This document shows positions 4,872 to 49,853 of a stretch of DNA of 64,000 bases, in pieces (the stretch's first letter is position 1; every line of letters starts with the position of its first letter). Under the pieces are notes generated by a model, which worked only from the letters and a program-made list of their open reading frames with translations, was not told the origin of the DNA and did not search any database. Where the stretch lies: contig CANFKE010000015.1 in NCBI GenBank assembly GCA_947447465.1, positions 1 through 64,000 of the forward strand, written 5' to 3'. Origin of the DNA: Chitinophagaceae bacterium. GTDB lineage: Bacteria > Bacteroidota > Bacteroidia > Chitinophagales > Chitinophagaceae. The position numbers and the translations under genes were made by a program.

Positions 4872-7800
4872 ATGGCGAAAAATAGTGAATTGCACATAGC
4901 ACACGTCCGTGAGGTGGAACCACCCAGGGTGCGCCATTTGCTTATTTACTATTTCTTTCAGGGAATTGGATTGTCGCTGTTCTTTACAGTTGCCACTTCT
5001 CTGTTCCTGTCTTCATTTGTTGCCGCAGATCTTCCGGTAGCTTTTGTGGCCTCGGCGGTAGCAATGGTATTGCTGGGAGGCATATATAATATAGTAGAGC
5101 GTAAGCTGGTAATGTACAAGCGGGCGTTTCTCCTTATTATCATTGCTATTTCAGTATTATTATTCTACCTGGGTATTCAAATGCAGTCAGGTACATGGCT
5201 GCCGTTCCTTATGTTCGTGTGGTGCAGGGTGGTATTCATGATCACCGATCTTGAATTCTGGGGACTATCTAATTTACTCTTTGATACCCGTGACTCTAAA
5301 AGCCTGTTCGGATGGATAAGTATGCGCGATGTGCCGGCAAGGGTGATCGGTTACTTTTCTGTTGGTTTGTTATTGCCGGTATTTGAGTTGCACTCATTGT
5401 TATTGTTTGCAGCCGCCGCCTTTTTTGCCAACTTTTTTGTTGTCAGGCAATTGCTGGACCCGGCCTATGCAAGAGATGTGAAGCCTGTGGCAACTGCCCC
5501 TGAAACGGAACACCGTCGTAAATTGTTCAATTTTCCGGGTGCAGGGTTATTGATGCTGCTGTGTGTATTGGGCATTACAGGTATTGTATTGTTCTCGGTC
5601 ATCAATTTTTCATTCCTCTCACTGGTAGAAGATAAGTTTCATAAAGCGTCTGAACTGGCAGCTTATCTCGGGCTTATCTATGGCGTTGCCAATATCTTAA
5701 CAGCCGGCGGTAAGACCTTTATGACCAATAAGGTATTATCTAAGATAGGTGCAAAGACCTCTATGCTGATACTGCCTATGTTCATCATAGCGGTGTCGTG
5801 TTTTGTTATAGGTAAGGTGGGTAGCGGAGAAGATCGCGTGCTTATCTGCTTTGTGCTGTTGCTTGCAGGAGGCACTATGCTGAAAGAAGTTTTTTATGAC
5901 CCAATCTATGTAAGTCTTACGCAGCCTTTACCGGGTGAAATAAGAAACAAAGCATACAGTATCATTCATGTTTTTGCCGAGCCGGGTGGTCTGGTATTAT
6001 CAGGTGTTCTCATCTATAATGTATTCGGGCGAGTATCTCATCCCGACCCGATAATGGCGGGTTATATTATAGCCGCTACAGCGTTGGCAGGTGCTCTGCT
6101 GATATTGATCACGTTCAGAAAATACATACTGACCTTTAAGGGGGCCATAGCCAAGCGGGTATTGGTCACCCGTGCTGTTGATTCATTCAATAGTTTTTCT
6201 CAGGCCATTATACGTGAAAAGCTGGAAAGTCGTGAACCCGAAGATGTGATCTATGCACATGAGTTATGCTCAGATAGCAATGTCCACTTTTTTGAGACCG
6301 AATTAGGACGCTTGTTGCGGCATGAGTCGGAGCAAGTAAGGAAGTATGCACTGGAGAAGATGTCTGTCAATACACCTTTCAGTGATACGGACGTGTTGAT
6401 CTATCTGGCTGTTACTGATCCTACGATCGAGGTAAAAGAACTGGCCATCATTCATTGCGGTGCCCGCTACAGAGATAGTTTCGGAGAGCAGTATAATAGT
6501 TTTCTGGAGAATCCGGATCTACGTATCAAGCAGGCGGCCATCAAGGGATTGATGGAGAGCGGTAATCCGGAGATCATTATGATAGCAGGGCATAAGCTCA
6601 ATGATCTGTTGGCATCAACAGATCCGGCGCAGAATGTGATAGGTGCCACCATCATAGGTGATATGCATCTTAATAGTCACTACAGGCATTTACTTAAATT
6701 CTTTGAAAATCAGGTAATTACAGTTCGAAAAGCAGCTATTATCGCAGCGGGGAAATTGACACATCCCAAGCTGATGCCGGCATTGTTCACTTTATTGTCA
6801 GACAGAAATCAGAGTGATGATGTAGTGCGGTCGCTGAGCAATTATCAGAAAGGCGTGATCAATCACCTGCTGGAAAACAAGGGCTTGCTGGAGCGTTATC
6901 CTGATGATATATTGAAGCTATGCGGATACATAGAGGAGAAGATAGCCGCTATGATCATCTGTATGTATCTGTTACCTCCTGCTGATACAGAGTTGCTGGA
7001 TGGCTGTCTGCAATCATTATATCTCATGAACAATGAGAAAGTAGAGGTAGATAGAGGTATCCTGGAGTTGAAGCTGGTCAACACGGGTGCACTCATTTAT
7101 TCAAGTCTGTATTATATAGATCAGTTGCCCGATAATGCTGTGTTGCTGAAAGAGGCATTCTACGCTGAAATAAAGAATGCCAAGAGGAGGATGTTGTTGC
7201 TTTTATCGCTGATGTATGACAGGTCTGTATTCGGTAAGATCATTAGTGCGTATGATAAGGCGGGAGATAAGAAAGACGCGGCCTTGAAATTAATGGAGGG
7301 CGTATTTGACGACAATCATAAAAAGCGCTTCCTGCCTGTTTTTGGATTAACAGACAATACTGCACTTAAGTCGCACCTGGCGCAGTTCTACCCGCTACAG
7401 GTGAAGGATGACATCAGTGAGGCTGTATTGATGGGTAAGAAAAAGAGCATATTCTTACTGTGGACGCAGGCTGCTGCGCTCTATACTTATTTGTTAGAGC
7501 TTTCAGATGAGGTGTTGCAGAACTATAAGGACCATCATGAAAAGATGATCTTTGAGATGGTACAGTTGGCACTCAGCCGTAAGCCATTTGCATTGAGATT
7601 GATAGAAGATGAATCTAATGCCAGCTTTACTATAGATCAGGAGCATGATGATGCACTGCTAAATATAGAGAAGATAGTGGTATTGAAGACCATTCCTATT
7701 TTTGAACACTTTACTCAGTCTATGCTGTCGGCCATCTGTGATATTATGCAGGAGCAGCGATATCTGGCCAATGGAGTATTGTATGGGGAAGGAGAGCCGG

Positions 7801-8042
7801 GTGACAGCATGTATATCATATATTATGGTACTGTGTCTATGTACAATGGTGTTGCCGAGATCATGAGGCAGGGAGGGAAAGAGATCATTGTAAAGATCGA
7901 CACTCCGGGTCAGGAGCTGGCATCGGCAAAAGCCATGACCGATACTTTATTGTTCAAGATCAAAAAGGAAGATATTGAAGCTCTGCAGTCCACTCAGCCG
8001 GAAATAGCCAAGAGTATGTTGCAGATGTTCAGCACTGTATAA
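4872..8042 (+). CDS. NTT-like membrane protein fused to HEAT repeats and a CRP-fold domain
   Basis: A 1056-aa three-part protein. Residues about 20-435 form a domain of about 12 transmembrane segments. Its loop DLEFWGLSNLLFD...SKSLFGWIS resembles the FW...D...K-LFG signature of ATP/ADP-translocase (NTT)-related carriers. Residues about 450-800 are alpha-helical and HEAT-like (repeated E-V-RKYALEKM and LRIKQAAIKGLMES-type helices). Residues about 930-1050 adopt a cyclic-nucleotide-binding (CRP-like) fold, with GEGEPGDSMYIIYYG at about 972. The phosphate-binding cassette (FGE...R-A) is absent, so nucleotide binding is doubtful. It would sit in the inner membrane with a cytoplasmic regulatory tail. 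Transport substrate is unknown. The ATG start at 4872 is well placed. Confidence 0.8.
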   Translation: MAKNSELHIAHVREVEPPRVRHLLIYYFFQGIGLSLFFTVATSLFLSSFVAADLPVAFVASAVAMVLLGGIYNIVERKLVMYKRAFLLIIIAISVLLFYLGIQMQSGTWLPFLMFVWCRVVFMITDLEFWGLSNLLFDTRDSKSLFGWISMRDVPARVIGYFSVGLLLPVFELHSLLLFAAAAFFANFFVVRQLLDPAYARDVKPVATAPETEHRRKLFNFPGAGLLMLLCVLGITGIVLFSVINFSFLSLVEDKFHKASELAAYLGLIYGVANILTAGGKTFMTNKVLSKIGAKTSMLILPMFIIAVSCFVIGKVGSGEDRVLICFVLLLAGGTMLKEVFYDPIYVSLTQPLPGEIRNKAYSIIHVFAEPGGLVLSGVLIYNVFGRVSHPDPIMAGYIIAATALAGALLILITFRKYILTFKGAIAKRVLVTRAVDSFNSFSQAIIREKLESREPEDVIYAHELCSDSNVHFFETELGRLLRHESEQVRKYALEKMSVNTPFSDTDVLIYLAVTDPTIEVKELAIIHCGARYRDSFGEQYNSFLENPDLRIKQAAIKGLMESGNPEIIMIAGHKLNDLLASTDPAQNVIGATIIGDMHLNSHYRHLLKFFENQVITVRKAAIIAAGKLTHPKLMPALFTLLSDRNQSDDVVRSLSNYQKGVINHLLENKGLLERYPDDILKLCGYIEEKIAAMIICMYLLPPADTELLDGCLQSLYLMNNEKVEVDRGILELKLVNTGALIYSSLYYIDQLPDNAVLLKEAFYAEIKNAKRRMLLLLSLMYDRSVFGKIISAYDKAGDKKDAALKLMEGVFDDNHKKRFLPVFGLTDNTALKSHLAQFYPLQVKDDISEAVLMGKKKSIFLLWTQAAALYTYLLELSDEVLQNYKDHHEKMIFEMVQLALSRKPFALRLIEDESNASFTIDQEHDDALLNIEKIVVLKTIPIFEHFTQSMLSAICDIMQEQRYLANGVLYGEGEPGDSMYIIYYGTVSMYNGVAEIMRQGGKEIIVKIDTPGQELASAKAMTDTLLFKIKKEDIEALQSTQPEIAKSMLQMFSTV

Positions 8043-8068: not shown

Positions 8069-9001
8069 CTATTGCATCTTATGCTGTTTGTTGCAGAAGT
8101 CAGTTATCGTGCCCAAAGCATCATTGATGAAGTTCAGCGGAACAGGTATCTTACCATGACCGTCCTCTATATCTATTACATAAGTAGGGCATGCTATTCC
8201 ACTCAGGCCGGCTGTTAGTTGAGTAGCGATCTCTTTTTCTTTTTCTATATCTACCGAAAAGTGCTGAATACCTTTTACCGCATCGCAGTGATAGAGGTAA
8301 TAGGGTATGACCCCTATATGGTGTAGCTGTGTGTATAGTTGATGTAGTGTATTGTAATTATCATTGATCCCCAATAGAAAAACGGACTGTGATAGTAGTG
8401 TTACTCTATGTTGTCGCAAGAGTGCAATTGCTTTCAGTGCGTCAGGTGTAAGTTCATCAGGGTGGTTGATATGTAATAATATATAGAATGGACGTCCGGC
8501 GCTAATCTCATCTATCAGCGATAGTAATTGTTGTATAGCCTCGGAGCTGAATGCCTCCGGCAACTGAAGTGGAAGGCGAGTGCCGATGCGAAATACCTTT
8601 ATGCTATCAATGGTTTTGATTTGTTCCAGAAGTTGATGGGTCAGCTTTGCGGTATAGAACGGATCACCTCCAGATAAGATCACCTCATCTATTTCAGGGT
8701 GATGTTGTAAGTACAATACTATATTGTTTATCTCCTCTGTGTTTAATGTGCCTTCAGGATGGCCTATCTGCCGGATACGCGTACAGAAACGGCAATGTGC
8801 CGCACATTGGTAGCTTACTTTTATTAAAGCCCTGTTAGTGTATTTATGGACCAGACCTTTTACTACTTCGTGTTCTTCTTCATGCAAAGGATCGTTATAA
8901 ACGGTTGCTGTCAGCGGTTCGTTTTTGTTTATGCAATATTGTCCACTGATGGATAAGGAGCCGGTAAGTCGCTTTAAGTATGGTGTTAGTTTTTCTTTCA
9001 T
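8069..9001 (-). CDS. KamA-family radical SAM aminomutase-like protein
   Basis: A 310-aa protein of the lysine 2,3-aminomutase family (KamA/EpmB branch). It has the radical SAM cluster C66-x3-C70-x2-C73 (QCAAHCRFCTR), a PLP phosphate-binding motif LSGGDP (110-114), and GHGKIPVP near the C-terminus, whose Lys (about 284) matches the PLP Schiff-base lysine. Both cofactor sites are thus intact. At 310 aa it is much shorter than clostridial KamA (about 416 aa), closer to EpmB. It would interconvert alpha- and beta-amino groups of lysine or a related amino acid. It is the last gene of an overlapping operon, its ATG sharing 4 nt (ATGA) with the GNAT-like gene. The substrate is unknown; an EF-P role (EpmB) is not supported by a neighbouring epmA or efp. 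Confidence 0.88.
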   Translation of the reverse strand: MKEKLTPYLKRLTGSLSISGQYCINKNEPLTATVYNDPLHEEEHEVVKGLVHKYTNRALIKVSYQCAAHCRFCTRIRQIGHPEGTLNTEEINNIVLYLQHHPEIDEVILSGGDPFYTAKLTHQLLEQIKTIDSIKVFRIGTRLPLQLPEAFSSEAIQQLLSLIDEISAGRPFYILLHINHPDELTPDALKAIALLRQHRVTLLSQSVFLLGINDNYNTLHQLYTQLHHIGVIPYYLYHCDAVKGIQHFSVDIEKEKEIATQLTAGLSGIACPTYVIDIEDGHGKIPVPLNFINDALGTITDFCNKQHKMQ

Positions 9002-9627
9002 TCTATTATAATGTTGTGTGCCAGTACCATGGGATACAGCGGGTGCTTCATTGCCTGCTCGTAAAAATCATCTGCCTCTACTAAATGTATATCTGAGTTG
9101 ATATGGCCAATGACAGGATATGTTTCGTCTATGTTGCCGGCCAAACAACCATTGGCTGCATGAACGAATGGTATTGCTGCAAGGTTCTTTACCGGCTTAT
9201 TGACCGTAGTAGCAAAAAGAGTCTGATGCCCGTTGGAGAATGCCCAATTGGTGATATGGTAAGCCAGTGCTACTGCCGCACGTTTATGTCCGGTGAGGAA
9301 TGCAAATTGCTCGAAGTAGCAGAGCGATCGTGATTCATATTTTGTGAGATCAATAGACCATGAGGCGCTATGACGTCGAATCCATACTTCCGATTCCCGT
9401 AGTTTTTCGTCAGGGAAAATAATACCGAACCCGATGACCTTGTTATCTTCTTCGGCAACCATACAATAGGAGCTATTGATGTAGTCAATATAAGTAGCTT
9501 CGTCTGTACCCAATAGAAAGCCACCTGAAGAAGTATTGTCTTCGTTCAACATCAGGGGTAGTTGCTCCTTTATATATAAGAATGCTTTCGCATCATCGGG
9601 TGTGGCCTTACGAAGTCTTGTTCTCAT
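8998..9627 (-). CDS. GNAT-like N-acyltransferase
   Basis: A 209-aa protein that begins like a GNAT acetyltransferase (RLRKATPDDAKAFLYIKEQLP, then a CMVAEEDNKVIGFGIIF strand pair). The acetyl-CoA-binding motif A is weak: the usual Q/R-x-x-G-x-G/A is represented only by HKRAAVALAYHI. The C-terminal half (TVNKPVKNLAAIPF...) is not familiar. It lies between a desaturase-like gene (20-nt overlap) and a KamA-like gene (4-nt overlap), so all three are likely translated together. A KamA/acetyltransferase pair recalls ablA/ablB for N-epsilon-acetyl-beta-lysine, but this protein is not clearly AblB, so the comparison is only suggestive. Confidence 0.65.
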   Translation of the reverse strand: MRTRLRKATPDDAKAFLYIKEQLPLMLNEDNTSSGGFLLGTDEATYIDYINSSYCMVAEEDNKVIGFGIIFPDEKLRESEVWIRRHSASWSIDLTKYESRSLCYFEQFAFLTGHKRAAVALAYHITNWAFSNGHQTLFATTVNKPVKNLAAIPFVHAANGCLAGNIDETYPVIGHINSDIHLVEADDFYEQAMKHPLYPMVLAHNIIIE

Positions 9628-10552
9628 ATACTATTGTCGGGCCTTTAAATTGATTGATAATTGCGCGAAAGAAATTCCATGTATTCTGATTCTGGTCATG
9701 ATACTCCTGAGGTAGCGGTGTACTCTTCGCCGGTAGCTCGTGCCATGATACATTTGGGTATTGATGGTGTGTGGCATGTTCGTTGAAATTCATAAGTATC
9801 CATGAGAACACCGGAACTCGATCTACAGACCGTACATTGAATCTTACACCTGTTCCTGTAGTAGTGTCATAATGAAAGATATATACCAGCATGGACAATA
9901 CCCATGCAAAAGATAGCATAGGGTAACCAAGTGTATAGAGATATATTTCTTTTCCTAAGAGAACGAATACAGAAAGATGTAGTGCAACGCCTAAAGAAAA
10001 CAGCGCAATGGATCTCAACTGGTCTTTCACGCCCCAGTTGTTGAAGGCGGGAGATATTTTTTTCGACAATGATACAGGTACAAACAAAAATAGTAGGATG
10101 GATATCAGTGAGTGAATAAAAAAGCCGCCCATGAAAACACTGATGTACCATACAGTGTAACAATATAGTTTGCGCATAAGTGTAGGTTTGCCTTTTATGA
10201 CGAATGTATCTAGTGAGGAGGTGTGGTGGTCTTTGCGATTAAAGCCATGATGGAACATGTGTATCTTTCGGTAGATAGTGATGGGTACCATAATGGGCAG
10301 TAGCACTACCGATCCCCAAAAGTCATTGAGTTGTTTATTTTCTCTTATCAGTTTGTTATGAGATGCCTCATGACCTACTATATAAAATCTGTAGAACCAT
10401 AATCCCTGAAACAGCAGAACAGGTGCATATATAGCCCATCTTATTCCTGATGATAGGGGAAGATGTTGTATGCTCACCGCAACAATGCTCTGAATGATAA
10501 ATATTATTAAGGTCTCTGCAATAAGCTTGTTATTGATCGATCGCGATGTCAT
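9608..10552 (-). CDS. Membrane fatty-acid-desaturase-superfamily protein
   Basis: A 314-aa integral membrane di-iron protein. Three histidine boxes are visible: H61-EAS-H65, H98-MF-H101-H102 and H259-AT-H262-H263, with an extra His near 271. Hydrophobic segments lie at about 12-55, 80-95, 132-160, 180-200 and 208-228. Superfamily members desaturate or hydroxylate acyl chains, carotenoids or other lipids using O2. Here it is the first structural gene of an operon with a GNAT-like and a KamA-like gene, so an amino-acid-containing lipid or a hydroxylated amino acid is a possible product; this is inference. The start ATG at 10552 is the only good one. Confidence 0.88.
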   Translation of the reverse strand: MTSRSINNKLIAETLIIFIIQSIVAVSIQHLPLSSGIRWAIYAPVLLFQGLWFYRFYIVGHEASHNKLIRENKQLNDFWGSVVLLPIMVPITIYRKIHMFHHGFNRKDHHTSSLDTFVIKGKPTLMRKLYCYTVWYISVFMGGFFIHSLISILLFLFVPVSLSKKISPAFNNWGVKDQLRSIALFSLGVALHLSVFVLLGKEIYLYTLGYPMLSFAWVLSMLVYIFHYDTTTGTGVRFNVRSVDRVPVFSWILMNFNEHATHHQYPNVSWHELPAKSTPLPQEYHDQNQNTWNFFRAIINQFKGPTIVYENKTS

Positions 10553-10640
10553 AAAATTATAAACACAAGTTTGTTATTGAAAGAAACGAGTGATTGTAAA
10601 GTAGCAAAAATCCAGCCAAAAATTCAAAGCAGCTGATCTA

Positions 10641-10793
10641 CTAATGGCAACTCATGTAGATCCACTCTATCGTTTTGGCTATAGCATATAAGAATAATGG
10701 AAAGCCTACAATCAGTGCAAATAAACAAGATAGTATGAGTATTGATTTTTTAAGTACAGGTGCAATCGTTGCGATGTATTGCTTGAGGTTCAT
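10641..10793 (-). CDS. Possible 50-aa membrane peptide upstream of the desaturase operon
   Basis: ATG (10793) to TAG (10641) encodes 50 residues beginning MNLKQYIATIAPVLKK, followed by a hydrophobic stretch (about 17-38, SILILSCLFALIVGFPLFLY) and ending in WIYMSCH. It fits a one-helix membrane peptide. It lies 15 nt downstream of a strong terminator hairpin and 88 nt upstream of the desaturase start. No family is recognised. The coding reality rests only on length, topology and position. Confidence 0.35.
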   Translation of the reverse strand: MNLKQYIATIAPVLKKSILILSCLFALIVGFPLFLYAIAKTIEWIYMSCH

Positions 10794-10807
10794 GATGAAC
10801 TTATGAT

Positions 10808-10850
10808 AAAAAAAAAGTCCCGAGATACCTTGGTATCTCGGGAAGGGACT
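10808..10850 (-). terminator. Strong hairpin plus U-run in the leader of the desaturase operon
   Basis: Read on the minus strand, CCCGAGATACC pairs perfectly with GGTATCTCGGG (11 bp, 10819-10842) and is followed by nine T residues (10816-10808). An outer AGTCCC/GGGACT pairing competes for the same GGG, giving two alternative registers. No minus-strand gene precedes it, since the next gene to the right (Hsp20) is on the plus strand. It therefore either ends a small RNA or attenuates transcription into the desaturase/GNAT-like/KamA-like operon. Confidence 0.75.
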
Positions 10851-10857
10851 GTACTTA

Positions 10858-10887
10858 CTAACCCATCGTTAGCATAGCAAATATCAT
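10858..10887 (-). CDS. Candidate 9-codon leader peptide
   Basis: A minimal reading frame, MIFAMLTMG then TAG, ends 8 nt before the terminator hairpin, the spacing seen in leader-peptide attenuators. Three of nine codons are Met, and no other residue is enriched. A small stem, CTAAC/GTTAG, spans its end. Too short to be proven by sequence. Confidence 0.25.
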   Translation of the reverse strand: MIFAMLTMG

Positions 10888-11193
10888 AAAAAGGTTCGGA
10901 ATTGAAAAATTATTTTTTGATACTTCTTTATTTTGTTTAAATATTTTTATTTGTACGCTTTGTCCTTATCGTCTTTTTCTTAAACATAAATTAGTCTATT
11001 TCGTTCGTTATCAAACAATTAGTAGAACTAATTTGAAGTGTTTATGCGTCATTATGACGTAGTAAAAAATATTAAAATGACAATATGGCTGATTGTTAAA
11101 AAGATTTAAGACATAATGTCTGATTTAATTGATTGGTACTTAGTTTGTTCAGGTAATAACAAATCAATCATTAACAACAAAAAAATAAAAACT

Positions 11194-17661: not shown

Positions 17662-18819
17662 TTATACAATACTTTGTATATACTTTCTGATGCGCTTATT
17701 TTTACCCAAGAGGAATACAAGGTCGAGGAGGAACGGCAATTTAGATAACGTTTGTTGCGCTTTATAGCTACTGTATAACCCATCTACTATGGCCGATTGA
17801 AGCGCATTATCATATCCTTTCATATACGTCTCACTAAAATCATTGGCTTTAAATGCACTGATCAATTGGTCTGCAGCTATTTTGCCACTCAGCACTGCAT
17901 TGCCCATACCTGTGCCAGATAATGGATTGGATAAAGAGGCCGCATCGCCAATGAGCATAAATCTATTGCCTGATACAGTGCCTATAGTTGATCCAAGTGG
18001 TACGCCGAAACCTTCCAGTGGTGAGACCTGCTCTGCATCAGCAAATTTTTCCGCCAATTCAGGACTTTGTTTGAAATAGTCGTAGAATGACTCTTTAAGG
18101 TTGATCTTATTTTCAGAGATATTGCTGGATAACAGCCCGAAGCCAACATTAGATAAATTATCGGCAATAGGAAATACCCATAGATAATTGAGATTGTATT
18201 TAGAGCTGAAGAATACTTCGCTGGTAATATTGTCTGTATTCTTTACATTCTTGTAATATGCTCTTACAGCACCGAGGTAATGATCTCTATCCAGTACCTT
18301 CTCAGTAAGTTGCTTGGCAACAATAGAGTTAGCACCATCGGCGCCAATGATCGCTTTGGCTGTAAAGACTACATCTGAATTTTTAATAGTAACTGTTACG
18401 CCTGTGTCAGTTGTCGTTATTTTGTCTGGTGTGGTAGCAGTAAATATCTCTGTATCGGTATATTTTCTCACTACATTGAGCAGGAAATTATCCAACTGAA
18501 GTCTAGGGCAAGTATATGATTCACTGACCCAGTCGAAGGTGAGTGTCTTTTTCTTATAATGAACTCTGGTATGTTTTAAGACCAGCGTTTTTGGAAAGTC
18601 GATAAATTCTTTTTCAAATCCCGGCAAAATAGTGTTCAACGTTTCCACTGCCTTTTTATGCAATAATTCGCCACATACTTTATCTCTGGGAAATTCACTT
18701 TTATCTATGATCGCTACTTTTAGCCCAGCCTGTCGTAAAGCTAATGCGCAGCTTGTACCTCCCGGGCCAGCGCCCAGTATCAGTACATCATATTGTTTCA
18801 CATTTGCTGTTTCGGTCAT
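17662..18819 (-). CDS. Geranylgeranyl-reductase-family FAD-dependent oxidoreductase (copy 2)
   Basis: A 385-aa flavoprotein. The FAD-binding Rossmann motif is at the N-terminus (LILGAGPGGTSCALALRQAG...AIIDKSEFPRDKVCGE), and the second FAD motif is GDAASLSNPLSGTGMGNAV at about 290. Family members (ChlP/GGR, digeranylgeranylglycerophospholipid reductase) reduce isoprenoid double bonds. In Bacteroidota many are annotated as NAD(P)/FAD oxidoreductases, with menaquinone or other isoprenoid lipids as possible substrates. Length matches the adjacent homologue (also 385 aa), which lies 25 nt upstream. It is probably the last gene of that operon. Confidence 0.88.
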   Translation of the reverse strand: MTETANVKQYDVLILGAGPGGTSCALALRQAGLKVAIIDKSEFPRDKVCGELLHKKAVETLNTILPGFEKEFIDFPKTLVLKHTRVHYKKKTLTFDWVSESYTCPRLQLDNFLLNVVRKYTDTEIFTATTPDKITTTDTGVTVTIKNSDVVFTAKAIIGADGANSIVAKQLTEKVLDRDHYLGAVRAYYKNVKNTDNITSEVFFSSKYNLNYLWVFPIADNLSNVGFGLLSSNISENKINLKESFYDYFKQSPELAEKFADAEQVSPLEGFGVPLGSTIGTVSGNRFMLIGDAASLSNPLSGTGMGNAVLSGKIAADQLISAFKANDFSETYMKGYDNALQSAIVDGLYSSYKAQQTLSKLPFLLDLVFLLGKNKRIRKYIQSIV

Positions 18820-18844
18820 CGGGTAAAATTTCGATACTATGCAA

Positions 18845-20002
18845 TTATACTAAACTCTGTATTTTTTTCTTTATCCATTCATACTGTGCCAACCAGAAAA
18901 GTATATCGAGAATGAAAGGGATGCCTGCCAAAAATTGGGTTGCTTTATAGCTGGCCACCAGATCTTTATATATCTGCTTGTCGAGTAGTGCATTATATGA
19001 GCCCATAAATGCAGCACTGAAATTTTGTTGTTTGAAGCATTCTTTAATCTGATCTGCGGCAAGTTTTCCGCTCACTACTGCATTGCCCATGCCGGTGCCA
19101 GAAATAGGATTGGTGAGTGAAGCCGCATCTCCTATAAGCAGGAATCTGTCGCCGGATACTGTACCCATTACTGAGCCCAAAGCTACTCCAAAACCTTCCA
19201 GAGGACCTTCCTGTTGCGCATTTTTAAATTTCCCCCCCAAATCAGGGTCTATCTTGAAATACTGATAGAATGATTCCTTAAGGTTGATCTTCTTCTTTGA
19301 AATGTCGCTTGACAGCAAACCGAAACCAACATTAGCACGACCTCCCTCTACAGGGAAGACCCACATACAGTTGAGGTGATACTTAGAGTTGAAATAGATC
19401 TCGGAGGTATTACTTTTCAGATCGGTGATGTTGGAAAAATAAGTTCTTACCGCACCCAGATAATGTTCTTTATTGATGACCTTGTGCGCCAGTTGCTTAG
19501 CAACGGCAGAGTTGACACCATCTGCACCTATCAGTACTTTAGCACGAAAAACAAAGTCTTCGTTCTTTATAGTGATCAAAATATTTTCCTCCTCATGGAT
19601 GAATTTATCTGGTGTAGTATTGGTAAATACCGAAATATTGCCGGCCTCCTTTACTTTATTCACCAAAAAATTATCGAAGTGTATGCGCGGACAAGTGTAT
19701 GATTCTCCTTCCCAATTATAGGTGACAGTTTTGCCTTTGTAGTGCATTATGGTATGTTTCAATACCAATGTCTTTGGGAATTTGGTAAACTCTTCTTTGA
19801 ACCCGGGAATGATGGAGTTGAAAGTTTCAACTGTTTTTTTGTGCATCAACTCACCGCAAACCTTATCTCTGGGAAATTCACTTTTGTCAATAATGGCAAC
19901 TTTAAGTCCGGAATCTTTCAGCGCTAATGCACAACTTGTACCCCCAGGTCCAGCACCTATGATCACTACATCATAATCTCTTATTTCAGCCCCGTTCCCC
20001 AT
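18845..20002 (-). CDS. Geranylgeranyl-reductase-family FAD-dependent oxidoreductase (copy 1)
   Basis: A 385-aa paralogue of the downstream gene, aligning end to end: VIIGAGPGGTSCALALKDSG at the N-terminus, KVCGELMHKKTVETFNSIIPGF, and GDAASLTNPISGTGMGNAV. The C-terminal 40 residues differ most. The pair is a clear tandem duplication retained with considerable divergence, suggesting different substrates or steps rather than a recent copy. It is divergent in role from lptG and tgt upstream, from which it is separated by about 110 nt. Confidence 0.88.
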   Translation of the reverse strand: MGNGAEIRDYDVVIIGAGPGGTSCALALKDSGLKVAIIDKSEFPRDKVCGELMHKKTVETFNSIIPGFKEEFTKFPKTLVLKHTIMHYKGKTVTYNWEGESYTCPRIHFDNFLVNKVKEAGNISVFTNTTPDKFIHEEENILITIKNEDFVFRAKVLIGADGVNSAVAKQLAHKVINKEHYLGAVRTYFSNITDLKSNTSEIYFNSKYHLNCMWVFPVEGGRANVGFGLLSSDISKKKINLKESFYQYFKIDPDLGGKFKNAQQEGPLEGFGVALGSVMGTVSGDRFLLIGDAASLTNPISGTGMGNAVVSGKLAADQIKECFKQQNFSAAFMGSYNALLDKQIYKDLVASYKATQFLAGIPFILDILFWLAQYEWIKKKIQSLV

Positions 20003-43172: not shown

Positions 43173-46100
43173 CTAGTTATTGTTCAGTGTAAAGTGGATG
43201 ATCTTAGATTCTCCATCATTGACAATTCTCATTATGTAATTGCCGGGTGGAATATTATCGCCCATCTTTATCTCTTGTTTTATCTCTTCACCTCTGGTCA
43301 TTCCCTCTGCGGTATGTACTATTCTGCCCATCATATCTATTACCTGATAGGTGATCTTGGTATTGGATGCAGAATTGGTCTTGCCTGATACGGTGAAGCT
43401 ACCATTATTAGGATTAGGATACATTGCAATGTCATTTAAGGAAATGGCGTCACCTATTCCCAACGTACCTATCCTGATGATCCTGATATCACTGGTGTCG
43501 AATGATGAAGTGGCACATTCCACATCGCTGGTCATAATGCAATACACTGTATCATCTGAATAGATCTCAGTTGAATAAGTAGCGTTGGTAGCACCTGTTA
43601 CCGGCACGCCGTTCAGATACCATTGGTAAGTTGGTGCCGTACCACCATAATTGACAGTTGAGAAGAAGGTCACAATTTCGCCGAGGTAAGTGATCAGATC
43701 GCCTGCTACTGATGAAACAATAGTGATGGTAGGTGTAACTACAGGGCGAACGAACATACTGATGCCCGCAGATGTGTCTGATGGAGGAACAGGACATGGA
43801 GCGCTACTGATCATGATACAAGACACATAGTCAAAGTTGGCAGGAGCATATGTAAATATGTTAGCTGTATCAACCGGAGACCCGAATATTGTCCAGATAT
43901 AGGTAGGTGTAGGGCCACCATTTACCGGTGTTGGCGTAAATGTGACCAATGTGCCTGCACATACTGTATCATTAGGAGTAAGTGTAATAGTGACCGATGG
44001 AACGACTATCGGGTTGACCGTCATAGGGTGAGTGGTAAAGGCAACGCCGCAGAAGTTAGTAACTGTATATTTAATACTTGCTGTACCCGGTGCCACACCT
44101 CCTACTACTCCGGTGCCCGAAGTGACGGTCACAACAGCAGTGTTCAGACTGCTCCAAACACCACCGCCTACTGTGCTGCCCAGTGTAACAGTTGCACCCG
44201 GACAAACTAATGAAGGACCTGTGATAGTGCCCGCAGTAGGGAATGGTATTACTACAGCAGGGAAGGTAGAAATATCCGTACCGCACACATTGGTATATGA
44301 ATAAGATATGGTAACACTACCGGGGGTAACACCACCAACTACGCCACCCGATGTAACGGTAGCGATACCTGTATTACCACTTATCCAGATACCACCCGGA
44401 GTGGTGCTGGAAAGTGTTGTAGTAGTACCCGGACATAGGTTAGGAATACCTGTAATGGTTCCTGCATGTGGTAGCGGATTGACCGTAAACGGATAAGTAG
44501 AGTAGTCTGTACCGCAAGAGTTGGTATAAGCGTATGATATGGTCAAGGTGCCGGCTGTAACGCCGCCAACGGTTCCCGTAGCACTTATTGTAGCTCTTGT
44601 AGTATTGCTGCTGCTCCAAACACCACCGCCTACTGTGCTGGTAAGCGATATAGTAGATGCCTCACATACAGCTACAGGGCCGGAAATAGTTCCCGCATGT
44701 GGTAGTGGATTGACAGTGACCAAAGCTGTATCAAATACAGATCCGCAGCTGTTAGATACGGTATATGAGATCAATACTGTTCCTGCTGCAACACCACCCA
44801 CTGTACCACCTGCTACGGTAGCTACTGATGTGTTCTGACTGCCCCATACTCCGCCCGTTGCTGTATTGCTGAGTGTGGTCACTGACGCTTCACAAACTGT
44901 AGTGATACCGGTAATGGTACCTGCAACCGGTTGCGGATTGACTGTTACAGCCCATGTTGCAATAGCTGTTCCGCAGGTATTGGTCACTGTGTAAGATATG
45001 GTCACGTTGCCTGCCAGAACACCTCCGACAACACCTGTTGACGAAACTGTTGCCGTACCATTATTAGAACTGCTCCAGGTGCCACCCGGTGCTGCATCTG
45101 TAAGTGTTATCTGTGTAGCCTCACAAACAGTTGAAAGTCCTGATATCGAACCTGCGTTTGGCAGAGGATTTACTGTAACGGACTGTGTAGCTGTAGCTGA
45201 TCCGCAACTGAATGTTGATACTGTATAGCTGATAGTTGTATTTGCCAGTGTAACTGATGCACCACCTACTACGCCTGTCGCAGATACCGTAGCTATAGCA
45301 TTAGATGCGCTGCTCCATGTACCACCCGGTGCAGGGTCAGTAAGTGATATTGTTGCTCCGTTACATACACTTGATGCTCCGGATATTGTTCCGGCATTGG
45401 GTAAAGGTTTTACGGTTACCGGATGAGTAACGGTAGCTGATCCGCAACTAAATGAGTTGACCGTATAAGATATAGTAGTAGTTGATAAGGTAGTTGCGGC
45501 CCCGAAAACATTGCCGGTAGCATTGACCGTTGCAATTGCTGTGTTGGCACTGCTCCATGTACCCGGGTCGCCGGTCGCATTTGTCAGTGATATACTTGCT
45601 GCTGAACAAACGCTATCCAAACCTGTAATGGCACCACCAACCGGTGTATGCTTAACGGTAACAGGGTGAGTTACTGAAGCCGATCCGCAACTGAATGATG
45701 GTACTGTATAGCTAATGGTAGTAGTTGATAATGTATTGGTCGCACCAAATACGTTTCCGGATGCATTGACCGTAGCGATAGCATTGGAAGCGCTGCTCCA
45801 TGTACCACCTGTACCTGTAGTGGTCAATGAGATACTTGCATTGAAGCACACACTGTCTGCACCGGTAATACTACCTGCATTAGGCAAAGCCTTTACAGTA
45901 ACCGGATGAGTAACAGTGGCCGATCCGCAACTGAATGAGTTGACAGTGTAAGATATGGTAGTTGTTGATAGAGTGGTAGCTACGCCGAACACATTACCAG
46001 AGGCATCAACAGTAGCAATAGTATTAGATGCACTACTCCATGTACCCGGGTCGCCGGTTACGTTTGTCAATGAGATGCTTGCTGCTGAACATACACTATC

Positions 46101-49100
46101 TGCACCTGTTATTGCACCACCTACAGGTGTATGCTTAACAGTAACAGGGTGAGTAGCAGTGGCAGAACCGCAACTGAATGTGGATGCGGTATAGCTTATG
46201 GTAGTTGTAGATAATGTATTGGTCGCACCAAATACGTTTCCTGATGCGTTGACAGTAGCGATCGGGTTAGATGCGCTGCTCCATGTACCACCTGTACCTG
46301 AAGTTGTCAATGAGATACTAGCATTGAAGCATACACTGTCTGCACCTGTAATAGTACCAGCATTAGGCAAAGCCTTTACAGTAACCGGATGAGTGACAGT
46401 GGCCGATCCGCAACTAAATGAGTTGACAGTATAAGAAATAGTAGTTGTTGATAGAGTAGTAGCTACTCCGAACACATTACCTGACGCATCAACTGTAGCA
46501 ATTGCATTGGATGCACTACTCCATGTACCCGGGTCGCCGGTTATGTTTGCCAATGAGATGCTTGCTGCTGAACATACACTATCTACACCTGTAATGGCAC
46601 CACCAACAGGTGTGTGCTTAACAGTAACAGGGTGAGTAGTAGTAGCAGAACCGCAACTGAATGTGGATGCGGTATAACTTATGGTAGTTGTAGATAATGT
46701 ATTGGTCGCACCAAATACGTTTCCTGATGCGTTGACCGTAGCGATCGGGTTGGATGCGCTGCTCCATGTACCACCTGTACCTGAAGTTGTCAATGAGATA
46801 CTTGCATTGAAACACACACTGTCAGCACCGGTAATCGTACCTGCATTAGGCAAAGCCTTTACAGTAACAGGATGAGTGACAGTGGCCGAACCGCAACTGA
46901 ACGAGTTGACCGTATAAGAAATAGTAGTTGTTGATAGAGCAGTAGCTACTCCGAATACATTACCTGATGCATCAACTGTAGCAATTGCATTGGATGCACT
47001 GCTCCATGTACCGAGGTCGCCGGTTACGTTTGCCAATGAGATGCTTGCTGCTGAACATACACTATCTGCACCTGTAATGGCACCACCAACCGGTGTGTGC
47101 TTAACAGTAACAGGGTGAGTAGCAGTAGCAGAACCGCAACTGAATGTGGACGCGGTATAGCTTATCGTAGTTGTAGATAATGTATTGGTAGCGCCAAATA
47201 CGTTTCCTGATGCGTTGACCGTAGCGATAGGGTTAGAAGCGCTACTCCATGTACCACCCGTACCTGAAGTTGTCAATGAGATACTTGCATTGAAGCACAC
47301 ACTGTCAGCTCCGGTAATAGTTCCTGCATTAGGTATAGCTTTTACGGTAATAGATTTTGTAGCGACTACCGGGCCACAGCCATAAGCTACTGTATAAGAA
47401 ATAGTGATTGTCCCTGTACTCACACCGCTCACTACACCTGTTACTGCATCCACTGTGGCAACTGCAGTATTATTACTTACCCATGTGCCACCTGTAGCGC
47501 CGTTAGATAAACTGATAGTAGCAGCCTGACAAACACTATCCGGACCTGAAATGGGAAGAGAAACACCAGTTGATACTACGCCAACCGGATGTTTAGCAGT
47601 ATCTGAGCCACAAAGCGTGGTAGTTGCTATATATAATATTGTATCAGCACCTACTATCAAACCTGTGATCACATTGGTAGTTCCGGTAGGTACAGCATTA
47701 GCAAGGGTAGGGTATTTGTTTACCCAGGTACCACCGGCAAGTGATGCTGTAAGCGTTATGGATGAACCTGTACACACTCCGTTAGCTCCGGTTATAGTAC
47801 CCGCATTGGGTAATGCATTCACTGTAACAGCGTGTGACGCACTTAACGGACCACAACTTAATGATGAAGCCGTATAAAATATGGTAGCATTACCCGGAGC
47901 AACACCTGTTACAACACCTGTTGCAGATACAGTAGCCACAGCATTATTGCTGCTGCTCCATGTCCCGCCTGTTACAGTTTCTGATAGGGAGATGGTCGAG
48001 TTAACGCATACGTTTGCCGGACCGGAAATAATACCGGTATCTGCTATTGGCAAGATCCTGACAATAAAATGAACATAATTGGTGTCAAACAATGATACTA
48101 CTGCCATTGTAACTGTATCCAGACCGGCGGTAACTCCTGTTATTACTGCATTACTATCCAATGCCCCTGCGCCACCTGCTATGGTAGCGTTTGCGTTAGA
48201 TACGCTCCAGTAAGCACTGCCATTCGCACAATGCTGGCTGGCCAATGTCATAGAGTTGCCCATGCAAAGGCTGTCAATACCGCGTATTGAGTTAGTGTCA
48301 GGGGTAGCTGTATTTTTAAAGATAGAGATCGTGTTGCTACCTATATTGCCCACCACTATGTCAGGTTTATTATCACCATCCATGTCGCCTACGGTCACTC
48401 CCTGCGGAGTTGAACTCGATCCTGTAGATAATATGGAACCTGCGGTGAACGTACTTGATCCTATAGTGCCTCCAGCAAAAGTATTTTTGAAAACAGATAA
48501 TGTGTTGCTATTTACATCACTGAATACAATATCAGTTTTTCCGTCACCGTCAAAATCTCCCATATCCAGTCCTGCCGGTCCTGTGCCTGCTCCGATATTG
48601 AATGTTGTAGCTGTAAATGAACTTGCATTTAGTGGGGTAGTAGTAACATTATTCTGGAAAACAGTAAATGAATTATCTGTATTATTGGCTACAATGATCT
48701 CCGGTTTGTTATCACCATTTATATCCATCACCTTGACCTGTCCCGATCCTGCTCCGGCGATGTAGTCCACATTTGGTTCGAATATAAATGTGTCAGTAAG
48801 TGAGATATTTCTTAATACGGAGATGGTACCATCAGTGTAGTTGGATGCTATCAGATCGGGTTTATTATCTCCATCTACGTCTGTAGCGCTGATACTTAAT
48901 GGCGTATTTCCGGCTGTAAAGGCTACATAGTAATTGGTAAATGTTCCTGTGCTGGGAAATGCTCCGACTCCTCCTGATGGTATTGAAGTAATGATGTTCC
49001 TGTATATTTCTATAGTATTACTTTGGTAGATAGCGCAGGCTATATCTAGTTTGCCATCCCCATCAAAATCCGCCAAAGCAACATCTATAGGGCCAGATGA

Positions 49101-49853
49101 AAAAGATTTGTTGGCTGGTGGCGCAACGGATATATTTCCCGGAGTGCTTTTGTTTCTGATACAGGAAACTCTTCCTGATCCGCTGCATGCGATGACGATA
49201 TCCAGTTTGCCATCTCCATCCAGATCTCCAAGTTTTACAATTCGACCACCATTGGCAACCGAACACAGAACCGGTGCCGCGTAACTTAGTTGCCCTTGAA
49301 CGCCTGTGTTCCTGTAAATATACATATACCCAAGTCCACCTGAATAGGGTTGATAGGTACACACGACCAGATCCGGCATTCCATCTCCATCAATATCCCC
49401 TATTGCTGAATAATATGGATCAGAATCTGATGTCGCATCAATGTTGAAATCTACTCTTGGCTTAAATGAACTGGTTCCCGGGATATAACAGCTATTGTCA
49501 TAATCAGGTGCGAACTGGTTTGCACTTACTGCTGTCAGTCTTGTCGTCAAGTTCAAAACCGATATCGATGAGTATTGAGCACCCAAGGGAACAGTTACTA
49601 ACAATGAGTTGGCAGTTGCTGTAACTACAGTCGCCTGCACTCCGCCAAACCAAACAACATTCCGTGTAGCAGTATCATTAAATCCTGAGCCTGCGATCAC
49701 CACTGTCCCTGAAACAGGTAATCCGCTGATGGGAGTAATGGATGTAATAGCGGGCGCTGCAGCATAGGAGCTACTGGTAAGAGTAGTCAGTAATAGAATG
49801 GTCGTAACTACAGACAATAGAACCTTTACTCGGAAAATAAATGTTTTCTTCAT
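43173..49853 (-). CDS. Giant T9SS-secreted repeat protein (VCBS + Ig-like)
   Basis: A 2226-aa surface protein. In order: a signal peptide (MKKTFIFRVKVLLSVVTTILL...); an IPT/TIG-like domain (about 34-115); seven FG-GAP/VCBS calcium motifs of type GDxDGDxxPD (about 150-510); 18 Ig/BIG2-like modules of about 80 aa, each with two Cys (VC... and CG), at about 520-1960; two PKD/Ig-like domains; and a C-terminal T9SS type A sorting domain (IAMYPNPNNGSFTVSG...PPGNYIMRI). Eight consecutive Ig modules are almost identical in two alternating types. Predicted to be secreted and attached at the cell surface, probably adhesive. It lies inside the polysaccharide region. Confidence 0.92.
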   Translation of the reverse strand: MKKTFIFRVKVLLSVVTTILLLTTLTSSSYAAAPAITSITPISGLPVSGTVVIAGSGFNDTATRNVVWFGGVQATVVTATANSLLVTVPLGAQYSSISVLNLTTRLTAVSANQFAPDYDNSCYIPGTSSFKPRVDFNIDATSDSDPYYSAIGDIDGDGMPDLVVCTYQPYSGGLGYMYIYRNTGVQGQLSYAAPVLCSVANGGRIVKLGDLDGDGKLDIVIACSGSGRVSCIRNKSTPGNISVAPPANKSFSSGPIDVALADFDGDGKLDIACAIYQSNTIEIYRNIITSIPSGGVGAFPSTGTFTNYYVAFTAGNTPLSISATDVDGDNKPDLIASNYTDGTISVLRNISLTDTFIFEPNVDYIAGAGSGQVKVMDINGDNKPEIIVANNTDNSFTVFQNNVTTTPLNASSFTATTFNIGAGTGPAGLDMGDFDGDGKTDIVFSDVNSNTLSVFKNTFAGGTIGSSTFTAGSILSTGSSSTPQGVTVGDMDGDNKPDIVVGNIGSNTISIFKNTATPDTNSIRGIDSLCMGNSMTLASQHCANGSAYWSVSNANATIAGGAGALDSNAVITGVTAGLDTVTMAVVSLFDTNYVHFIVRILPIADTGIISGPANVCVNSTISLSETVTGGTWSSSNNAVATVSATGVVTGVAPGNATIFYTASSLSCGPLSASHAVTVNALPNAGTITGANGVCTGSSITLTASLAGGTWVNKYPTLANAVPTGTTNVITGLIVGADTILYIATTTLCGSDTAKHPVGVVSTGVSLPISGPDSVCQAATISLSNGATGGTWVSNNTAVATVDAVTGVVSGVSTGTITISYTVAYGCGPVVATKSITVKAIPNAGTITGADSVCFNASISLTTSGTGGTWSSASNPIATVNASGNVFGATNTLSTTTISYTASTFSCGSATATHPVTVKHTPVGGAITGADSVCSAASISLANVTGDLGTWSSASNAIATVDASGNVFGVATALSTTTISYTVNSFSCGSATVTHPVTVKALPNAGTITGADSVCFNASISLTTSGTGGTWSSASNPIATVNASGNVFGATNTLSTTTISYTASTFSCGSATTTHPVTVKHTPVGGAITGVDSVCSAASISLANITGDPGTWSSASNAIATVDASGNVFGVATTLSTTTISYTVNSFSCGSATVTHPVTVKALPNAGTITGADSVCFNASISLTTSGTGGTWSSASNPIATVNASGNVFGATNTLSTTTISYTASTFSCGSATATHPVTVKHTPVGGAITGADSVCSAASISLTNVTGDPGTWSSASNTIATVDASGNVFGVATTLSTTTISYTVNSFSCGSATVTHPVTVKALPNAGSITGADSVCFNASISLTTTGTGGTWSSASNAIATVNASGNVFGATNTLSTTTISYTVPSFSCGSASVTHPVTVKHTPVGGAITGLDSVCSAASISLTNATGDPGTWSSANTAIATVNATGNVFGAATTLSTTTISYTVNSFSCGSATVTHPVTVKPLPNAGTISGASSVCNGATISLTDPAPGGTWSSASNAIATVSATGVVGGASVTLANTTISYTVSTFSCGSATATQSVTVNPLPNAGSISGLSTVCEATQITLTDAAPGGTWSSSNNGTATVSSTGVVGGVLAGNVTISYTVTNTCGTAIATWAVTVNPQPVAGTITGITTVCEASVTTLSNTATGGVWGSQNTSVATVAGGTVGGVAAGTVLISYTVSNSCGSVFDTALVTVNPLPHAGTISGPVAVCEASTISLTSTVGGGVWSSSNTTRATISATGTVGGVTAGTLTISYAYTNSCGTDYSTYPFTVNPLPHAGTITGIPNLCPGTTTTLSSTTPGGIWISGNTGIATVTSGGVVGGVTPGSVTISYSYTNVCGTDISTFPAVVIPFPTAGTITGPSLVCPGATVTLGSTVGGGVWSSLNTAVVTVTSGTGVVGGVAPGTASIKYTVTNFCGVAFTTHPMTVNPIVVPSVTITLTPNDTVCAGTLVTFTPTPVNGGPTPTYIWTIFGSPVDTANIFTYAPANFDYVSCIMISSAPCPVPPSDTSAGISMFVRPVVTPTITIVSSVAGDLITYLGEIVTFFSTVNYGGTAPTYQWYLNGVPVTGATNATYSTEIYSDDTVYCIMTSDVECATSSFDTSDIRIIRIGTLGIGDAISLNDIAMYPNPNNGSFTVSGKTNSASNTKITYQVIDMMGRIVHTAEGMTRGEEIKQEIKMGDNIPPGNYIMRIVNDGESKIIHFTLNNN
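45391..47322 (-). repeat. Four tandem copies of a 483-bp two-module repeat
   Basis: Within the giant gene, alternating modules A (TITGADSVCFNASISLTT...) and B (AITGxDSVCSAASISL...) of about 80-81 codons repeat four times. The repeat distance is 483 bp at several landmarks (45715, 46198, 46681). Copies differ at few positions, and many of these are silent or conservative. The near-identity indicates recent tandem duplication or gene conversion. The copy number may vary between strains and may be under- or over-counted in short-read assemblies. Confidence 0.92.

Follow-up and report, generated by a model that had tools for sequence, protein, structure and literature searches.

Introduction

What is made by an operon in which genes for a membrane desaturase, a GNAT-like transferase and a KamA-like radical S-adenosylmethionine (SAM) aminomutase overlap one another? 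The operon lies in a stretch of 64,000 nucleotides (nt), here called the window, at positions 1 to 64,000 of contig CANFKE010000015.1 of the Chitinophagaceae bacterium assembly GCA_947447465.1. The host belongs to the genus Flavipsychrobacter, and the nearest named KamA records, at 77-78% identity, are those of F. stenotrophus. An earlier note on this DNA had proposed that the three genes encode a pathway for a beta-lysine-like amino acid that is acylated or hydroxylated. The conserved unit was found to be a rare desaturase-GNAT pair, to which the KamA gene is a local addition in Flavipsychrobacter, and the three-gene set points to, short of proof, an undescribed modified amino-acid product. 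Beta-amino acids derived from aminomutases are known in osmolytes, antibiotics and elongation factor P (EF-P), and an operon that also encodes a membrane di-iron enzyme would widen that range to products that are oxidised and perhaps linked to the membrane. No such gene set was found in print in the open full-text literature, a coverage outside which most subscription journals lie, and in PMC3639832 the genes concerned stand at separate places.

Conservation of the operon within Flavipsychrobacter

The end of the desaturase gene overlaps the start of the GNAT gene by 20 nt, and the GNAT and KamA genes overlap by 4 nt (Table 1), which bears out the earlier report of three overlapping genes in one operon. 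The identical operon, with both overlaps and matching flanking genes, is present at three other loci in the genus, so the arrangement is not due to chance. The KamA-like protein is encoded in 4 of 11 Flavipsychrobacter genomes, that of the window included, the desaturase in the same four, and the GNAT gene was read at all four loci, each of which keeps the 4-nt GNAT/KamA overlap. In 18 pairwise comparisons covering all three genes, the proportion of nonsynonymous differences (pN) was 0.035-0.253 against 0.40-0.85 for synonymous differences (pS); with most pairs saturated at synonymous sites, no pN/pS ratio is quoted. Judged from these coding sequences, all three genes are under purifying selection. 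The other seven genomes of the genus gave no KamA-family match at an expect value (E) of 1e-10, and the desaturase was not found in them; four of the seven are less than 90% complete and one is 93% complete, so some of these absences could be gaps.

Table 1 Features of the operon and its upstream region in the window
Feature	Position	Strand	Remarks
Membrane desaturase/hydroxylase-like di-iron protein, first gene	9608-10552	minus	314 aa; PF00487
GNAT-fold transferase without glycine acetyl-CoA loop, second gene	8998-9627	minus	209 aa; PF00583
KamA-family radical SAM aminomutase, truncated, with LAM-type substrate residues, third gene	8069-9001	minus	310 aa
Conserved structured RNA, terminator-like hairpin and U run at its end	10805-10906	minus	about 250 nt upstream of the desaturase gene; the hsp20-like gene lies on its other side
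aa, amino acids; CoA, coenzyme A; LAM, lysine 2,3-aminomutase

The desaturase-GNAT pair outside the genus

The genome sets searched (298 genomes of the order, 195 of the family and 395 of the phylum) share members and sample the phylum without covering all of it. Desaturase matches were obtained in three of the order genomes (that of the window, G242 and G042), three of the phylum genomes (that of the window and two with weak partial matches), 3 of 199 genomes in the family of G242 (G242, G875 and G939) and one of six genomes in the G042 family, namely G042, while GNAT matches came from two family genomes, both Flavipsychrobacter, and from one phylum genome, that of the window. At the four outside loci (G242, G042, G875 and G939, from two other families) the GNAT gene follows the desaturase gene with an overlap of 17 or 20 nt, as it does at all eight loci seen, and the proteins are 58-69% (desaturase) and 45-57% (GNAT) identical to those of the window. 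No KamA gene adjoins the pair at any of these four loci. Genome-wide, G242, G042 and G939 have no KamA-family match at E 1e-10, and G875 has a single match below the family cut-off, a protein of another type in which Arg and Ser replace the two Asp residues discussed below and which is 64-66% identical to weak Bacteroidota KamA matches; the KamA family model, run on 15 chosen genomes, matched five, namely the four operon genomes and, below cut-off, G875. Because all four outside loci keep the overlapping pair without an adjoining KamA gene, the pair is the core and KamA the addition. The co-occurrence of all three genes, which the earlier note had suggested looking for across Bacteroidota, was found only in the four Flavipsychrobacter genomes.

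The desaturases of G875 and G939 are 67-69% identical to those of Flavipsychrobacter and 62-64% identical to that of G242, a member of their own family, a comparison of identities and not a formal test, which suggests that the pair has moved between lineages. Searches of plasmids, viral contigs and phages gave no GNAT homologue; viral contigs also gave no desaturase or KamA homologue, and plasmids gave one desaturase record at 22.9% identity and 134 KamA records at up to 40.9% identity. Four genomes with three genes, four with two, and seven of the same genus in which neither KamA nor desaturase was found form a set in which lipid and metabolite profiles could be compared.

Predicted functions of the three proteins

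The first protein matches PF00487 (97 bits against a cut-off of 29.7, E 2e-27) and, as had been claimed, has all three His boxes, HEASH (61-65), HMFHH (98-102) and HATHH (259-263), whose eight histidines (H61, H65, H98, H101, H102, H259, H262 and H263) are invariant in all eight desaturases. Its structural model has a mean predicted local distance difference test score (pLDDT) of 76.2 and is weak at residues 103-112 and 228-244. The top match of the model is a chloroplast FtsHi complex chain (8xks_K; Z 17.7, root-mean-square deviation (rmsd) 4.3, 281 residues aligned); AlkB (8f6t) was matched at Z 11.2, rmsd 5.1 and 246 aligned residues, and SCD1 (6wf2), more weakly than AlkB, at Z 5.1, rmsd 5.5 and 177 aligned residues. 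These two enzymes and two chloroplast FtsHi-complex chains appear in the Foldseek listing, and none of them informs on the substrate. The model supports the assignment of the protein as a di-iron membrane oxidase. A beta-carotene ketolase (CrtW) was rejected as a candidate, since the score to NF045690 was 32.8 of the 350 bits of its cut-off.

The second protein passes the PF00583 cut-off (22.3 bits against 20.7), and PF00583 is matched by six of the eight members of its group at E<=1. Its AlphaFold2 model (mean pLDDT 75.7, residues 143-151 below 50) clearly has a predicted GNAT fold, with 327 Protein Data Bank (PDB) chains matched at E<=0.001, among them Ard1 (6ag5; Z 16.1, rmsd 2.2, 149 aligned) and EctA, a diamino-acid acetyltransferase (6sjy; Z 14.7, rmsd 2.5, 149 aligned), which nearly ties with many other matches. 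No AblB or OlsB structure is among the 50 matches listed for the model, an absence that has no bearing on membership of those families. A sequence search of the PDB gave no match for the GNAT or the desaturase. The usual acetyl-CoA loop of GNAT enzymes has the motif R/Q-x-x-G-x-G/A. In the alignment of all eight members the pyrophosphate loop departs from this motif and has no glycine, in agreement with the poor acetyl-CoA motif noticed earlier, and the blocks GGFLLGT and TTV..P are invariant in all eight. None of the eight matches any NCBIfam family at E<=1, in a library that presumably includes an AblB model. On this ground, and on an hhalign probability of 0.1% to the Cytobacillus AblB, identity with AblB was rejected; identity with OlsB was likewise rejected, since PF13444 is not one of the three families to which the eight members gave matches at E<=1.

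The third protein belongs to the radical SAM enzymes and to the KamA family (TIGR00238; 202.1 bits against 199.2), and a search of the host genome at E 1e-10 gave it as the sole KamA-family match (201.4 bits). The CxxxCxxC cluster, SGGDP and the lysine of GHGKIP that the earlier note had listed are all present. Residues 33-292 align to lysine 2,3-aminomutase (LAM; 2a5h) with an E of 9.5e-50. In all four Flavipsychrobacter proteins R75, D240, D277 and K284 align with R134, D293, D330 and K337 of the Clostridium subterminale LAM, which we take to be the residues holding the carboxylate, the side-chain amine and pyridoxal 5'-phosphate (PLP). Among 27 aligned KamA-family proteins, R75 and K284 are invariant and D240 is Asp in 21. 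At the D277 position Asp is found in the four window-type proteins, in three AblA and three AblA_like_2 proteins and in four others; four EpmB or EpmB-like proteins have Glu, two of two BlsG have Thr, and the rest have other residues. Read from these positions, the active site is of the lysine type; the residues alone do not separate LAM from EpmB or AblA_like_2. The C-terminal multimerisation domain is absent, the protein ending 26 residues after the PLP lysine, and EpmB (YjeK) likewise is without it, according to PMC2821294. The same paper gives the product of LAM as the S form and that of EpmB as the R form.

The cut-offs of the narrower NCBIfam models were not reached. The best score was to AblA_like_2 (TIGR03822; 220.5 bits against 396.25), with 215.1 against 525.4 for the AblA equivalog (TIGR03820), 208.1 against 369.3 for EpmB (TIGR03821), 199.7 against 600 for arginine 2,3-aminomutase (BlsG, TIGR04468) and 196.7 against 650 for glutamate 2,3-aminomutase (TIGR04368). 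An arginine aminomutase was rejected because the second Asp is present and the TIGR04468 cut-off is missed. A search of the order at E 1e-20 found KamA matches in 17 of the 298 genomes, including that of the window; one other is strong (G270, 35% identity, AblA-like), and the remaining 15, in open frames of 352-504 residues, are 28-34% identical. The tree and its alignment were built from 26 hand-chosen rows, which include 4 of these 15 weak matches and no glutamate 2,3-aminomutase sequence. The four Flavipsychrobacter proteins form one clade (100/100), separate from EpmB in the tree. In approximately unbiased (AU) tests no alternative grouping was rejected: p-AU was 0.595 with AblA/BlsG, where the likelihood slightly exceeded that of the unconstrained tree, 0.365 with AblA_like_2, 0.231 with EpmB and 0.151 with Leptospira. 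In the comparison with lysine aminomutases and EpmB that the earlier note had suggested, the LAM residue equivalents are present and no efp gene was seen nearby, and a grouping with EpmB is not rejected.

No GenX/EpmA reached the cut-off in the host genome, which is 92% complete, so this absence is not proof; the best score, 231.4 bits against 286.9, came from a 531-residue frame that is presumably a lysyl-tRNA synthetase, and in a control on 14 genomes the cut-off was exceeded in two. No efp was found among the open reading frames (ORFs) around the operon. With a sole KamA-family match and no GenX/EpmA above cut-off, a role of the protein in EF-P modification is unlikely, and the two findings argue for a role tied to the operon. 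The simplest reading of the sequence would be a lysine aminomutase with a job of its own. Two observations on KamA genes elsewhere may be recorded. A 209-residue neighbour of a Leptospira KamA, considered as a counterpart of the window GNAT, was discarded, having no Pfam match and no BLAST match to it. On plasmid 7 of Rhizobium sp. Q54 (L067), a gene annotated as lysine-2,3-aminomutase-like directly follows an annotated GenX (EpmA) gene with a 4-nt overlap, so the family of that name may be an EpmB variant.

Proposed pathway and alternatives

The scheme favoured here, tentatively and with less than even confidence, is a pathway built around the rare pair and a recruited KamA; the gene order, overlaps, conservation, families and active-site residues are as observed above, and we infer every reaction, the order of the steps and the product. 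The core would consist of the GNAT and, encoded by the overlapping gene, a di-iron membrane oxidase belonging to the desaturase/AlkB class, and in Flavipsychrobacter this pair would have recruited a truncated lysine 2,3-aminomutase as a third gene. KamA would convert L-lysine to beta-lysine, the GNAT would form an amide on an amine of the beta-lysine product, from a donor, perhaps an acyl-acyl carrier protein, that probably does not bind through the usual acetyl-CoA loop, and the membrane enzyme, working at the membrane, would desaturate or hydroxylate the product or the acyl chain. Since their overlap is kept at all eight loci, the desaturase and the GNAT are likely to act together, and KamA is placed in the same pathway because of its conserved 4-nt overlap and its joint presence with the pair in 4 of the 11 genomes. 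The beta-lysine-like pathway of the earlier note is in part upheld by the operon and the lysine-type KamA residues, and in part undercut by the occurrence of the pair without KamA at four other loci. An aminolipid, which the earlier note had named as a possibility, may be the product, although the GNAT is not a match for the OlsB family PF13444.

Several points weigh against this scheme. Four genomes have the pair but no lysine-type KamA, so beta-lysine need not be the substrate of the GNAT in Flavipsychrobacter either; the pair does not depend on a beta-amino acid made by KamA, and a beta-lysine pathway is possible in Flavipsychrobacter alone. Because R75 and K284 are invariant and D240 is widely kept, only D277 is at all selective, and Asp at that position is found in other KamA subfamilies too. 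The AU tests do not fix the place of KamA in its family, the fold match is silent on the substrate of the GNAT, and the substrates of the desaturase could be ordinary membrane lipids.

The strongest rival, possible although unlikely, is that the pair serves to modify a glycan or glycolipid of the cell surface, with the GNAT acylating a free amino group (of an amino sugar or a sugar-linked beta-lysine amide) and the membrane enzyme oxidising the acyl chain. In G939, on an 8.4-kb contig (L060), the pair has a methyltransferase gene before it and, after it, genes for a polysaccharide deacetylase (PF01522) and another GNAT, and a row of ORFs nearly identical to this one, as judged by eye, lies on a 5.2-kb contig of G875 (L059). 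In the window, rfbB- and rfbA-like genes start 1.2 kb from the desaturase start and an exopolysaccharide-type cluster lies at about 40-57 kb (all by eye), but the rfb-like genes run in the opposite direction with an hsp20-like gene in between, and in G242 and G042 no glycan-building gene stands directly beside the pair (the G242 contig ends 1.3 kb before the desaturase). We know of no role for a KamA in glycan synthesis, which also counts against it.

It is doubtful that KamA and the GNAT make N-acetyl-beta-lysine as a compatible solute, in the manner of AblA and AblB, with the desaturase a separate cold or membrane-fluidity gene on the same transcript. The LAM-type residues and the 4-nt overlap of the KamA and GNAT genes are consistent with it, and adjacency of ablB and ablA is a known arrangement (PMC2821294). 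Outside the genus, however, the GNAT is coupled to the desaturase and not to a KamA, and its eight members have no NCBIfam match, do not align to the annotated AblB and lack the acetyl-CoA glycine loop. Equally doubtful is that the three genes are co-transcribed without forming one pathway, the pair having one job and KamA making free beta-lysine for another use. No KamA stands beside the pair at the four outside loci and no lysine-type KamA was found in those genomes, as would be expected, but joint presence and absence in the genus and the 4-nt overlap conserved at all four loci speak for a common role.

A more speculative and rather improbable reading makes the pair a mobile cassette for oxidation and acylation, given different amine-supplying partners by lineage (a beta-lysine-making aminomutase in Flavipsychrobacter, the polysaccharide deacetylase in two other genomes). 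Its products would be a set of related amides, unsaturated or hydroxylated and as yet undescribed, with an N-acyl-beta-lysine lipid as the Flavipsychrobacter member. Least probable by far is an EpmB making beta-lysine for EF-P: the short C-terminus, the unrejected grouping and the Glu at the D277 position of EpmB, a mild difference, would allow it, but the window protein has CTR, CD and PTYVID against CFR, LD and PKLAREI in Escherichia coli EpmB and falls far below the EpmB cut-off, and the reading is set aside on context (no GenX above cut-off, no efp nearby), although the tree by itself leaves EpmB standing.

Upstream RNA and neighbouring genes

The upstream RNA is near-unchanged in the four operon genomes, in which much of the surrounding intergenic sequence differs, and the interval of the earlier note, drawn to 10893, also spans most of it. 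The folding energy of a 111-nt stretch is -36.2 kcal/mol (z -4.95), and none of 200 shuffles reached a value as low. Covariation support is modest: 2 of 25 pairs are changed on both sides, both in G303, and 33 of 500 shuffles reach that number. No Rfam family reached its gathering score. A model built from the four genomes and run on 39 of 80 sequence sources matched only those four, apart from opposite-strand matches of the palindromic hairpin. The RNA may serve the operon as an attenuator or leader, or be a small RNA in its own right. A 50-residue ORF with a hydrophobic stretch (10641-10793, minus strand) lies directly before the desaturase gene and is without a counterpart there in the other three genomes.

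The operon is flanked on one side by an AAA ATPase-like gene and a gene for a 1056-residue protein, and on the other by the hsp20-, rfbB- and rfbA-like genes, these names being assigned by eye. The 1056-residue protein (4872-8042, plus strand), which adjoins the operon in all four genomes, combines HEAT repeats and a cyclic-nucleotide-binding domain with an N-terminal part that looks transporter-like by eye. In G307 extra ORFs stand between the AAA-like and 1056-residue genes, one of them transposase-like by eye (locus L037, 2845-3771, minus strand) and not seen at the other three loci. Farther along the window, two tandem FAD-dependent oxidoreductase-like ORFs of 385 residues each (17662-20002, minus strand) are likely a duplication, and a 2226-residue protein with many near-identical repeats (43173-49853, minus strand) is encoded within the exopolysaccharide-type region.

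Comparison with known systems

The operon resembles AblA/AblB in that a KamA-family enzyme with equivalents of both lysine-binding Asp residues adjoins a GNAT, and differs in the missing C-terminal domain of KamA, in a GNAT that neither matches AblB nor has the acetyl-CoA loop and that also occurs without KamA, and in the coupled desaturase. With EpmB/YjeK and AblA_like_2 it shares a truncated KamA-family protein, EpmB records being 34-38% identical over the matched part, whereas the window protein is far below both cut-offs and has neither an EpmA/GenX above cut-off in its genome nor an efp beside it.

The OlsB/OlsF/OlsE systems for ornithine, lysine and hydroxylysine lipids offer a possible scheme, in which an amino acid is combined with a GNAT-fold N-acyltransferase and a membrane oxygenase. 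OlsE belongs to another Pfam family, PF04116. N-acyltransferases of the OlsB type are PF13444 proteins according to PMC11631085, and the window GNAT is without that domain.

A plasmid of Citrobacter portucalensis (NZ_CP134684.1, L044) carries a distant relative of the desaturase (23% identity, hhalign probability 97.8%), with radical SAM and GNAT genes next to it, but the radical SAM proteins scanned belong to the B12-binding type and its GNAT failed to align. It was rejected as a counterpart because only the desaturase is related to that of the window; the cluster comprises the desaturase, several radical SAM genes (three scanned, B12-binding), and PAP2, SnoaL-like, GNAT and GH3-like genes. 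With the PF00487 desaturases and AlkB, finally, the first protein of the operon shares three His boxes and, in its model, an AlkB-like fold, and it differs from them in belonging to a narrow clade, marked by NEHATHHQ[YH]PN..W, that is paired with this GNAT at all eight loci seen.

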